From: Anaerolineae bacterium
GTDB taxonomy: Bacteria; Chloroflexota; Anaerolineae; Promineifilales; Promineifilaceae
Reading direction: 5' to 3'
Assembly: GCA_023954475.1 (NCBI GenBank)
Contig: JAMLHW010000006.1
Coordinates: 124,001 to 188,000 of the forward strand
DNA length: 64,000 nucleotides
Each line of letters opens with the position of its first letter. The first letter of the stretch is position 1. Below, in pieces: positions 4,270-56,067 of the stretch. The notes under the pieces were generated by a model. That model saw only the letters and a list, made by a program, of their open reading frames with translations. It was not told the origin of the DNA and made no database searches. A program made the translations under genes and the position numbers.

Positions 4270-4875
4270 ATGAAATTACTCGTCGCAACCCATAATCAAG
4301 GCAAAGTTGCCGAGCTGTCGGCGATGGTGCGCGATTTGCAGATAGAGTGTATCAGTCTTGCAGATGCAGGCATTTCGGCCGAAATTGATGAAACAGGCCA
4401 TACTTTTTTAGAGAACGCCACACTCAAGGCCACGTCATATGCTCAATTGAGCGGTATGCTGACCCTGGCGGATGATTCCGGGCTGGAAGTTGACGCGCTT
4501 GACGGTGCGCCCGGCGTGCATACAGCGCGTTTCGGCGGCTCAGACCTGACGCAGCCCGAACGCAATGCCTTGTTGCTGCAATCACTAACCGGTATTCCAG
4601 ATGATCGGCGCAGCGCACGCTTTCGCTGCGTTGTTGTGTTGGCTGGCCCCGATGGCTTGCCGTTGGCACAGGCTGCCGGCACACTCGAAGGCGTTATCGC
4701 CTCGGCTCCGGCAGGCAGTGGTGGCTTTGGCTATGATCCCATTTTCATGTTGCCGCACTCTGGTCACACACTGGCAGAATTATCGGCCGAACAAAAACGT
4801 GCCATCAGCCATCGTGGTCAAGCATTTCAGCGCATCACGCCGGCAATCCGGCAGGCATTGAATCTCCAGCCTTAG
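4270..4875 (+). CDS. rdgB: XTP/dITP diphosphatase (RdgB/HAM1 family)
   Basis: 201 aa, the normal length. Family motifs are clear: N-terminal KLLVATHNQGKVAEL, then DDSGLEVDALDGAPGVHTAR, GFGYDPIF, and C-terminal KRAISHRGQAF. The enzyme hydrolyses ITP, XTP and their deoxy forms to monophosphates and pyrophosphate, keeping deaminated purines out of DNA and RNA. The catalytic acidic residues (in the DDSGLEVD segment) are present. It follows a uracil-DNA glycosylase-like gene, a fitting functional neighbour. Confidence 0.95.
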   Translation: MKLLVATHNQGKVAELSAMVRDLQIECISLADAGISAEIDETGHTFLENATLKATSYAQLSGMLTLADDSGLEVDALDGAPGVHTARFGGSDLTQPERNALLLQSLTGIPDDRRSARFRCVVVLAGPDGLPLAQAAGTLEGVIASAPAGSGGFGYDPIFMLPHSGHTLAELSAEQKRAISHRGQAFQRITPAIRQALNLQP

Positions 4876-5010
4876 TCTCACTTCGTGCATTTTCACTTAC
4901 AACTGATCGCCGACTTCGGGTTTGGCGTTGCGTTACCTGAGTAAAATATGAGGTGATTTGGCATCGTGCCCGTTTAGGCCAGTTGGGAAACAAGATCTGA
5001 AGCAGTTGAC

Positions 5011-5040
5011 TTGACAATATGACAGCAAAAAGGGTATCAT
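5011..5040 (+). promoter_or_regulatory. Predicted sigma-70-type promoter for rpoB
   Basis: TTGACA (5011-5016), an 18-base spacer and TATCAT (5035-5040). It is followed by a leader of about 200 bases before the rpoB ATG. The 375-base gap between rdgB and rpoB otherwise holds only the hairpin at 5145-5173; no gene was found in it. Confidence 0.7.
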
Positions 5041-5144
5041 ACTCAGTCGCGCTAATGCGCAAAAACATGTTTTTCGTTGGACAAGTGATACTATAAACCC
5101 GCTTCAGCAAACTGTTTTGCACCGGTGAACCCATTTATGGATGT

Positions 5145-5173
5145 TAGGGGTACGACGCTTCGTCGCACCCCTA
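5145..5173 (+). promoter_or_regulatory. Leader hairpin between promoter and rpoB
   Basis: Arms 5145-5157 and 5161-5173 pair over 13 positions with one A-C mismatch and a 3-base CTT loop. It is followed by a short, weak T-rich stretch. It lies inside the presumed rpoB leader, so it could be an attenuator, a protein-binding or processing site. It is less likely to be the terminator of rdgB because a promoter lies between. Confidence 0.6.
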
Positions 5174-5250
5174 CTTTAATGTAAGCAGTTGCTGTTGAAA
5201 TAGGTCAATGTGTTGCTGTCGCCAATCTGTTGGGAGCAGGTAACCGTTTC

Positions 5251-8200
5251 ATGTCTTTCAAACTCAATACTAAAAATTACGCCAATACCAAGTTCCCCCT
5301 TGAGCTGCCGAGACTCATCGATGTTCAGCTTGAATCCTTTGCCCGTTTTAAGGAGCAAAGTCTGGCCGAATTATTTGAAGAAGTGTCGCCAATAGTCAGC
5401 TTTAACGGTCAGTTGAAGCTATATTTCCCTTGCAATCGCCCAGAAACCGAGGGATTCGACCTGAATTATTGGTTCAGTGAGCCGAAATATTCGGTTGAAG
5501 AGTGTGTGGAACGCGATATGACCTACGCCGCACCACTGTACTGCAACGTGTTGCTCTATCGCGCTGACCTCGACCAGCCAATGGTTCAAGAATTATTTAT
5601 GGGTGATTTTCCGTTAATGACGCCTTCCGGTACGTTTGTCATCAATGGCACTGAGCGCGTTGTCGTCAGTCAGTTGATTCGTTCGCCGGGCGTTTATTTC
5701 GAAATTGAGGAAGAACGGGCAACCGGTCGTCCGCTGGCGATGTCGAAGTTGATTCCTGATCGCGGCGCGTGGATGGAGTTTGAAACGCGCAAAACTGATT
5801 ACCTCACCGTCAAGTTCAACCGCAAGCGCACGGTTCCGATCACGATGTTCTTGCGTGCTATCGCTGCTGTGGACGATGGGCTGGGCAATGCGCTGATTAA
5901 GGAAGGTACCGACGACGAAATTCTGGCGCTCTTTGCGGACATCGACACCAATGGTGATCACCTTTACATTCAAGGGAGCATTGAGCAGGAACCCAAGTGG
6001 AACGCTGATTTGCCTCTCTCTGAGCAGGCGTTGATTGAATTCTACAAGCGCATGCGTCCCGGAGACCCGCCGACCAAGGAAAACGCTGAAGATTATTTGC
6101 GTGAACAGCTTTACGACCCACGCCGTTATGATTTGGCGCGTGTCGGCCGATATAAGATCAACAAGCGGCTGCATTTGGATGGCCTGGTGCCACTTGAGCA
6201 TCGCACGATTACCCAATACGATATTGTCCGTCTTGTGCGGCGTATGATTCTGATCAACAATGGCCAGGAAAAAGGTGACGACATCGACCATTTGGGCAAC
6301 CGTCGCGTAAAAACGGTCGGTGAGTTGTTGCAGGCGAAATTGCGCGTCGGGTTGCGTCGTATGGAACGTGTTGTTCGCGAACGCATGTCCATTCGTGAAG
6401 CTGAGAATCTGACGCCGGTATCGTTGGTCAATATTCGCCCGGTTGTGGCGTCTATTCGCGAGTTTTTCGGCAGTTCACAGTTGAGCCAGTTCATGGAACA
6501 GGCTAATCCGCTGGCTGAATTGACGCATAAGCGCACGGTATCAGCACTGGGCCCGGGTGGTTTGCGTCGGGAGCGTGCCGGCTTTGAAGTGCGAGATGTT
6601 CACCACAGCCACTATGGCCGTATTTGTCCGATTGAGACACCGGAAGGCCCGAATATTGGTCTTATCGGCCGATTGGCAACTTATTCGCGCGTCAATTCCT
6701 ACGGCTTCATCGAAACACCCTATCGACGTGTACGCCACACGTTGCCGACTGCCAGCCCAATGCTTGTCGGCCATGATGTCGATGTCAATATAGTGCATCC
6801 GGAGACGGGTGAAATATTACTGGAGGCGGATGGCGAGATCACCGAAGAGATCGCAGCTATTATTCGGGAAACCGAACTGGAAGAAGTCAGTGTACGACCG
6901 TTTGTTACGGACGAAATCGTCTACATGCAGGCCGACGAAGAAGATCAATATTCCATTGCACAAGGCAATGCTGAACTCGACGGCAAAGAACAGTTTATCG
7001 GCCGACGTGTACCCGTGCGCCGTGATCAACAATTCCGGTTTACTTCGGTGCAGCGTATTGACTACATAGACGTAGCGCCACGTCAGATCGTCGGTATTTC
7101 TGCGGCATTGATCCCGTTCCTCGAGCACGATGACGCCAGCCGTGCCTTGATGGGGTCCAACATGCAGCGCCAGGCTGTGCCCCTATTGCAACCCGATGTG
7201 CCCATTGTCAGCACCGGCATGGAATTCCATGCAGCGCGTAACTCCGGCATGGTCTTGCTGGCAGCTGAAGACGGCGAGGTGGTGAGCGTATCCGGTGCTG
7301 AAATCACCGTTATGGGTGAATCCGGCCCACGCACCTACAACTTGCGTAAATATGATCGCTCAAATCAAAGTACTTGTGTCGACCAACACCCAATCGTTTA
7401 TAAAGGACAGCGAGTCAGTACCGGCGACGTGCTTGCTGACAGTTCCTCCACACAATTTGGTGAGTTGGCGCTGGGTCAGGACGTAGTCGTCGCATTCCTT
7501 TCCTGGGAAGGCGGCAACTTTGAAGACGCCATTTTAGTGAGTGAAAATCTGGTCAAAGGCGATAAATACACGTCTGTTCATGTCGAAAAACACGAACTGG
7601 AAGCACGTGATACAAAGCTGGGACCCGAAGAAATCACTTACGACATCCCGAATGTCAGTGAAGAGGCGTTAAAGGACCTTGATGAACGCGGTATTATTCG
7701 CGTCGGGGCAGACGTCAAAGAGCATGACATCCTGGTCGGCAAGATTACACCAAAAGGTGAGAAAGAACTGACACCTGAAGAGAAATTGCTGCGTGCAATC
7801 TTTGGTGACAAAGCGCGTGAAGTCAAAGACTCCAGCCTGCGCCTGCCGCACGGCGCGCGCGGAAAAGTTGTTGACGTTCAAGTGTTTGACCGTCAGCAAG
7901 ATCGCGATCTGCCGGCCGGCGTAGAAACAATGGTGCGCGTCAGTGTGGCACAACGCCGCCGCCTCACAACAGGCGATAAGATGGCAGGTCGGCACGGCAA
8001 TAAAGGTGTTATTTCCCAGGTCGTCCCGGTTGAGGATATGCCGTTTTTGGCAGATGGTCGTTCAGTTGACATCATTCTTAGCCCCATTGGAGTACCTGGC
8101 CGTATGAATTTGGGTCAGGTTTTGGAGACACACCTGGGTTGGGCGGCCCATCATTTGGGTTTCCGAGCTATCACACCTGTGTTTGATGGAGCTAATGAGC

Positions 8201-54615: not shown

Positions 54616-55965
54616 TTAGTTTAACAGCGTTAATGTGCCCCATGTTGCCGGTTGGAGATAATGGCGGTCGGCTACGTGTGAGTAAAGCGCTTCCTGTACA
54701 GCTGTTCCGGGCACATCGTTGTCAGTCACGTTGAGAGCGAGACCCACGACCATGCCGGGTGCGGGCATGACGTCGATTACCTCCCAGGGGATAGCCGCTT
54801 CGACAATATAGCCGGATGGCGTCTGTTCGACTTGGAGCGGGATGTCCAAACTGACTTCGAGATTAAATTCGCCTGATGCGCTTCCCTGGAAACAATATGA
54901 TGAAGGTTCGATTGGTCCGAAATCGCCCGGTGACAGCACAATGATGTAATCATCACTATCGACGTAGGATGGATCGTCACTCATATCCGTGTCGATTTGG
55001 AATTCAACGCTGTCGCCCAAATAAATACCTCGGCCGACTTGCGTTTGAACATGCACATCATCATACACTTCAACAGCCACATAAATATAATCATCATTCC
55101 AGCCAATGCGCCATATAGCAGAAAGCGTCCCCAAATGCGCCGTTGCCAGAGTTCCCGTGTATACGCGATAAGATGATAGAACAGAAGGGACGCGATCCCA
55201 TTCACCTAAATCGCTATTGATTTCAATCGGAGAGTCAAAATACACGGCACCAACAGCGCCCGGCTCAGTTGGAAACGGTATAGTTGTGGGTTCTGGTGTT
55301 ATGATTGGCTCGACAGGTACGGAATTGGCTGCTGCTGGCGTCAAAAGCGAAGGAGCTGCTTCATCAGGACCGATACCTGTATTCGTTGCATCGACTACGG
55401 TATCGGTCGAGAATGACTGGAAATCGCGAATTATCGTGAAGGCCAGCGCTGCTATCAGCAATGCAGTTATCACACCCATACCTGCAGCTATTTCACGGCT
55501 GTGTGCCTCGATAAAAGACTCAGACCGCTGCGGTGAATTCTTATCAGCTATCCATGAGACGGCTTTTTCGCCTTCGTGGAACTCGATGGTCTGGCTGTGT
55601 GCGCCACACAATGTATTGCGGATATCATTGCGGTCTGCTTCGTCCACATGTCCCATTGTGAACAGGATTGCTTTGTTGGCACGCTGACTGTTGGCCAGTC
55701 GACACAATCGATGAATTGATTCTATCGGGACTGCGCCTTCATCTTTAGTACAGAATGCAATCGACTTGGCGCGGCCTTTGTCCAGTATGAGATGACCAAA
55801 CCGGTCAAGAGAGACTTTGTATCCCTGTTGTTGATACAGATAGCCGATGAGTCTGTCGAACTCGCGTGGATGTAGGTTTCTAATTGCGTCAGCGGTGAAT
55901 ATCTGGCTGTATCTGGTGCGCTCCTGCTTACTGAGGCGCAAGAGCGTGAACTGCGAAGGCGCCAC
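54616..55965 (-). CDS. Mrr-like domain / transmembrane / CBM9-like domain fusion protein
   Basis: 449 aa from a GTG. Residues about 30-140 resemble the Mrr restriction-endonuclease fold (HPREFDRLIGYLYQQQGYKV, then ANSQRANKAILFTMGHVDEADR). However, the catalytic Asp position appears as His58 (FGHLIL) and the QxK element as CTK (Lys74 kept), so it may not cut DNA. One transmembrane helix spans about 160-180, a Pro/Thr linker follows, and residues about 243-449 match a CBM9/DOMON-like sandwich (INSDLGEWDRVP, WNDDYIYVAVEVYDDVH, GDSVEFQIDTD). The Mrr part would be inside and the carbohydrate-type domain outside. No known full-length homologue is recognised. Confidence 0.72.
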   Translation of the reverse strand: MAPSQFTLLRLSKQERTRYSQIFTADAIRNLHPREFDRLIGYLYQQQGYKVSLDRFGHLILDKGRAKSIAFCTKDEGAVPIESIHRLCRLANSQRANKAILFTMGHVDEADRNDIRNTLCGAHSQTIEFHEGEKAVSWIADKNSPQRSESFIEAHSREIAAGMGVITALLIAALAFTIIRDFQSFSTDTVVDATNTGIGPDEAAPSLLTPAAANSVPVEPIITPEPTTIPFPTEPGAVGAVYFDSPIEINSDLGEWDRVPSVLSSYRVYTGTLATAHLGTLSAIWRIGWNDDYIYVAVEVYDDVHVQTQVGRGIYLGDSVEFQIDTDMSDDPSYVDSDDYIIVLSPGDFGPIEPSSYCFQGSASGEFNLEVSLDIPLQVEQTPSGYIVEAAIPWEVIDVMPAPGMVVGLALNVTDNDVPGTAVQEALYSHVADRHYLQPATWGTLTLLN

Positions 55966-56067
55966 GTTGTTACCCCTATTCCCTACTTCTTTCTGGAACT
56001 ACCCCTTGCACTATGAGAAAAGTATACACAAACGATGGCGATCTGTCTATGTGGAAATCAGTCAAGT

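Follow-up and report, generated by a model that had tools for sequence, protein, structure and literature searches.

The window, a 64,000-nucleotide stretch of DNA from an Anaerolineae bacterium, carries on its minus strand a gene whose product joins a degenerate Mrr-like domain to a CBM9-like domain. The features of the locus, in window coordinates, are as follows.

54616..55965, minus strand: whole open reading frame, in the order Mrr-like domain, transmembrane (TM) helix, linker, CBM9-like domain; 449 amino acids, GTG start (Pfam and AlphaFold2)
55537..55896, minus strand: degenerate Mrr-type domain (PD-(D/E)XK fold), residues ~24-143, predicted cytoplasmic (Mrr_cat, AlphaFold2, structural matches)
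55855..55857, minus strand: Asp37, at the position of a conserved helix Glu (alignment)
55792..55794, minus strand: His58, where relatives have the catalytic Asp within GD(E/Q)G(I/V)D (alignment)
55744..55755, minus strand: Phe71-Cys72-Thr73-Lys74, at the QCKR position (alignment)
55417..55497, minus strand: transmembrane helix, residues ~157-183 (hydropathy; a single long helix in the AlphaFold2 model)
55258..55416, minus strand: Pro/Thr-rich disordered linker, residues ~184-236 (sequence; pLDDT below 50 over most of 183-220)
54619..55257, minus strand: CBM9-like beta-sandwich, residues ~237-449, predicted outside (CBM9_1 and a Foldseek match to 1i82)
56021..56049, minus strand: promoter-like TAGACA-17-TATACT, ~55 bases upstream of the GTG, a consensus match only and not above shuffles

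Hydropathy analysis gives the protein one hydrophobic segment (residues 157-183). GC3 of the gene (54616-55965) is 0.43-0.55 by part, below the 0.59-0.67 of its neighbours.

The Mrr_cat profile (PF04471) matches residues 28-110 with 21.3 bits (E 3e-4) against a curated cut-off of 21.0, a marginal score that makes the match weak taken alone; elsewhere the same profile scores 48.8 bits in a paralogue from the window's own genome and 106.1 and 112.8 bits in two relatives from other genomes (G031 and G032). CBM9_1 (PF06452) covers residues 256-448 with 73.6 bits against a cut-off of 23.4 (E 2.4e-20). An AlphaFold2 model of the whole protein (alignment of 23 sequences) has a pLDDT of 83.7, with values over most blocks of 90-95 in the Mrr part and about 90-98 in the CBM9 part, one long helix at 145-183, and a linker below 50. 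Modelled alone from seven sequences, the Mrr domain reaches a pLDDT of 85.8 and a pTM of 0.81 and displays the endonuclease fold's beta-alpha core. Structural comparison places AF1548 (Z 11.2), AspBHI (Z 11.2, rmsd 2.4 over 114), and MspJI (Z 10.4, rmsd 2.4 over 116) closest to it. Residues 30-140, which the initial annotation had taken to be endonuclease-like, are therefore so on structure prediction. The CBM9 part matches the CBM9 of Thermotoga maritima (1i82; Foldseek E 1.2e-14, 22% identity over the domain) and a second CBM9 structure, 7nwo (E 3.3e-13). Pfam and AlphaFold2 together confirm, at the level of profiles and models, the composition originally proposed: an Mrr-type endonuclease fold, here degenerate, and a CBM9-like beta-sandwich, joined by a transmembrane helix and a Pro/Thr linker.

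We infer that the N-terminus lies inside and the CBM9 part outside, since the protein has no evident N-terminal signal peptide, CBM9 modules are otherwise extracellular, and the N-side of the helix is the more positively charged in several relatives; such positive-inside charge was not seen in the window protein itself. Both positions of the CBM9 tryptophans that we take to form the sugar-stacking site are Tyr in the window protein (phmmer alignment to 1i82). Aromatic character is kept at both, and carbohydrate binding is uncertain on account of the replacement.

A search of Chloroflexota for the same architecture, suggested by the initial annotation, yielded nine further proteins, the paralogue and eight in other Chloroflexota metagenome-assembled genomes (MAGs).

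G000:C12:48430-49821: paralogue in the window's own genome (G000), Mrr-TM-linker-CBM9 in a 482-codon frame
G031, G073 and G075: Mrr-TM-linker-CBM9, other genomes
G074: Mrr-TM-linker-CBM9, interrupted midway by an assembly gap (N)
G032: two contig ends, both stopping in a GTGVPD linker repeat and taken as one gene
L091, L098 and L100: Mrr-TM-linker-CBM9 in three Anaerolineales MAGs

Within the window's bacterial family the layout occurs in 6 of 52 genomes, belonging to 4 of 22 genera, and no full-length architecture was found in the class and phylum samples outside that family; the three Anaerolineales proteins came from a scan of named genomes. Scanning genome contigs with a single-sequence query gave no loci, and a five-sequence alignment gave 32. 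The neighbourhoods of the layout genes are conserved among close relatives and within genera and differ between groups, and no operon or synteny shared by the window gene, the paralogue, and relatives of other genera was seen. The genes adjoining the window gene encode an acyl-CoA ligase, a flavin reductase-like protein, an HPPD-like dioxygenase, and a sulfatase (Pfam); the immediate neighbours of the paralogue are likewise metabolic, and nothing among these nearest genes points to defence.

The Mrr part of the intact relatives is under purifying selection. In two orthologue pairs it changes more slowly than the rest of the protein (dN 0.022, against 0.127 in the linker and 0.092 in the CBM9 part, for L089/L090; 0.028 against 0.093 and 0.067 for L091/L100), and its dN/dS is about 0.014-0.022 with dS near or beyond saturation. 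No close relative of the window gene was found for measuring selection on that gene.

The motif of the intact relatives consists of a Glu in the first helix followed by GD(E/Q)G(I/V)D and then QCKR, and this set (E...GD(E/Q)G(I/V)D...QCKR) is complete in all eight relatives from other genomes. Aligned with them, the window protein has D37 for the helix Glu, H58 for the Asp of GxxGxD, and F71-C72-T73-K74 for QCKR, and its loop around H58 is five residues shorter. The marks of an active PD-(D/E)XK enzyme, a catalytic Asp and (E/Q)xK, are thus absent from it (H58 and F-C-T in the alignment), and the initial reading of His58 at the catalytic position and of a lost QxK is borne out. The idea that a degenerate active site is a trait of the architecture fails on the eight intact motifs. 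In the paralogue the Glu is replaced by Val, the catalytic Asp is kept, and E-C-L-P stands at the QCKR position; as judged from the alignment, the two copies in this genome have lost different catalytic residues. By its motif, the window copy is a putatively catalytically disabled member, and the same-layout Chloroflexota relatives keep the cutting residues, so the window protein would be an inactivated branch of a small family that had no name before.

A compensated frameshift or sequencing error was considered as the origin of the degeneracy and rejected: one of the other frames is full of stops, neither alternative frame matches better, and the annotated frame is the best match by far.

The changes are unevenly placed within the domain. 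Of the 30 positions at which ten intact relatives are invariant, the window protein keeps 11, mostly hydrophobic or structural, and it keeps only 2 of the 13 invariant polar positions (our own count on the alignment output). In the hydrophobic core columns it is hydrophobic at 23 of 31, against a background of 0.32, and none of 20,000 shuffles scored as high. The pattern is one of retained core and lost active surface. So much core, after change on this scale, exceeds what common descent by itself would readily preserve, and it suggests a continuing need for the fold.

Trees of the two halves differ. A single branch, with support of 86/89, which is not strong, sets the Mrr halves of the fused proteins apart, and in a tree built with another sample the window row floats, owing to its length; for the CBM9 halves a single clade of fused proteins is rejected (AU p 3e-6). 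The pairing was kept, or was made, with different CBM9 partners, and a single history is possible for the Mrr half against several for the CBM9 half. The CBM9 parts may have been exchanged with short forms, or the Mrr part repeatedly lost; the counts fit gain as well as loss.

The CBM9 part is an exchangeable module. In most family genomes the helix-linker-CBM9 unit follows only a short N-terminus (proteins of ~300-350 amino acids), and the gene often shares a conserved neighbourhood with genes for acyl-CoA carboxylase subunits and methionine sulfoxide reductase, an arrangement absent at the window locus. Tandem pairs of TM-CBM9 genes also occur (L117:2-994 and 991-1998; L118:5317-6564 and 6598-7755; L036:2925-4184 and 4335-5264), and in the L117 and L118 pairs a zinc-ribbon-like CxxC motif starts the second protein. 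No short form occurs in the window's own genome, where CBM9_1 proteins number three: the fused pair and a secreted, lipoprotein-like CBM9-glycosidase (L171, G000:C10:2334-2873), whose glycosidase part is GH3-type by eye. In the same bacterial family and class, receptor-like proteins place a Ser/Thr kinase before the helix, Pro/Thr linker, and CBM9 (L112, L086:3887-5863, L023, and L028).

On the Mrr side, proteins of ~220-260 amino acids with hydrophobic N-terminal segments and an intact motif number nearly one per family genome (e.g., L076:5657-6391), and Mrr-TM proteins with Pro/Thr tails are present in other Anaerolineae. Membrane association of Mrr is therefore ordinary here, which does not support the starting assumption that such folds usually occur without a membrane link. 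One further Mrr-TM protein, of 418 amino acids (L155:2520-3776), carries a different C-terminal outer domain of about 150 amino acids. Of the overall interpretation first offered, the domains, helix, linker, and catalytic loss survive, whereas the rarity of membrane linkage and the degeneracy as an architectural trait do not.

Our tentative preference, held at a little short of an even chance, is for an Mrr-type protein anchored in the membrane, its CBM9-like module facing outward, that has here become a protein for binding or tethering without catalysis. The ancestral design would have been a cytoplasmic, membrane-tethered Mrr-type nuclease with one helix, a Pro/Thr linker, and an external CBM9-like module. 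In this genome both copies have lost catalytic residues with the fold retained, and the inner domain would serve as a non-catalytic binding module for DNA or a protein partner. The outer domain may bind envelope or external polysaccharide, and the whole protein would tether or signal rather than cut. The occurrence of the CBM9 module behind Ser/Thr kinases in relatives fits a receptor-like role. For the window protein we infer the topology, the lack of activity, the ligands, and the tether or sensor role; sensing or tethering is plausible.

The next reading in strength, possible yet doubtful, is that the Mrr part is an eroding remnant and that selection acts only on a membrane-anchored CBM9-like module, as in most relatives. 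It gains from the short TM-CBM9 proteins of most family genomes, with their own conserved neighbourhood, and from the lack of a short form in this genome. The end branches of the Mrr tree, in changes per column, are 5.9-8.9 for the window protein, 2.5-3.4 for the paralogue, and 0.02-0.9 for the others, against a window end branch of about 1.1 in the CBM9 tree; the contrast with the intact relatives means that relaxed constraint could also account for the changes. Against erosion, the Mrr part retains its full length and reading frame without stops, its core hydrophobicity is far above shuffles, its model is confident, and it has been kept in both paralogues. We accordingly lean, without firm commitment, towards binding or tethering without catalysis rather than a remnant.

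Rather unlikely, in our estimation, is a Chloroflexota family of transmembrane receptors whose outer CBM9-like module, common to them and to receptor kinases, would exert outside-in control over a DNA-acting domain: a tethered Mrr-type DNase, intact in most members, or, here, a dead REase-fold signalling domain. We regard as improbable a guard of the envelope, for defence or at DNA uptake, in which the outer module would sense phage or damage at the surface while the inner Mrr domain acted on incoming DNA, the window protein serving as a decoy or regulator. Membrane-associated PD-(D/E)XK proteins (COG4741) have been proposed as guardians against foreign DNA (PMC1189080), and the intact relatives match the Mrr-like parts of Zorya ZorD and type IV REase profiles, but the immediate neighbours of the window gene and paralogue are metabolic, the chromosomal neighbourhoods of the layout genes are conserved within genera, and the window protein had no PADLOC match at E 0.001. 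Least probable is a nuclease still active through a rearranged site (D37, D54, and Lys74 shifted by one), given that, for all that a Lys lies one residue past the canonical place with acidic residues nearby, the Asp-to-His, Gln-to-Phe, and Lys-to-Thr changes, the five-residue loop deletion, and the paralogue's own, different losses (Glu-to-Val, QCK to ECL) make activity unlikely.

Should DNA cleavage by the intact relatives prove to be controlled by the outer module, a single polypeptide would combine a nuclease with its outside-in regulation, and the degenerate pair described here would show how a nuclease domain can become a binding domain in nature; otherwise, the proteins are a modest addition to the known Mrr and CBM9 architectures.

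What we describe is a small new architecture of known domains, and no description of an Mrr-TM-CBM9 architecture was found in the open-access literature searched. Related themes have been reported: an inactive REase-like domain has been suggested in COG4127 (PMC1189080), a selection for phage defence in Escherichia coli recovered one system with a putative membrane-anchored DNA binding or cleavage protein and another with an Mrr-beta-propeller fusion (PMC9519451), and NPCBM, another carbohydrate-binding module, is fused to effectors in conflict systems (PMC8195603). The closest known system for the inner domain is Mrr_cat (PF04471), the type IV restriction endonuclease domain, with which it shares fold and sequence relationship; the relatives keep E...GDEGxD...QCK, whereas the window copy is without the catalytic Asp, Gln, and Lys and is joined to a transmembrane helix and an outer CBM9-like domain. 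An inactive REase-fold domain within a multidomain protein is an idea shared with NA-iREase1 (PF22722) of NACHT proteins, but membership was rejected, the window protein scoring 15.3 bits against a cut-off of 27 (Pfam) and having no NACHT/STAND NTPase domain; the intact relatives exceed that cut-off although their motif is complete. COG4741-type membrane-tethered PD-(D/E)XK proteins also have a transmembrane helix adjoining a predicted cytosolic REase-fold domain, but they are YraN-like rather than Mrr, their helix is N-terminal, and they are without an outer carbohydrate-type domain (PMC1189080). The outer module shares its fold, at 22% identity, with the CBM9 of T. maritima Xyn10A (1i82), and differs from it in belonging to a single-pass membrane protein rather than a glycosidase and in having Tyr at both stacking-Trp positions, with binding only putative. 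The Ser/Thr kinase-TM-CBM9 proteins (L112, L086, and L023) have the same helix, Pro/Thr linker, and outer module, and differ in that their inner domain is a protein kinase.
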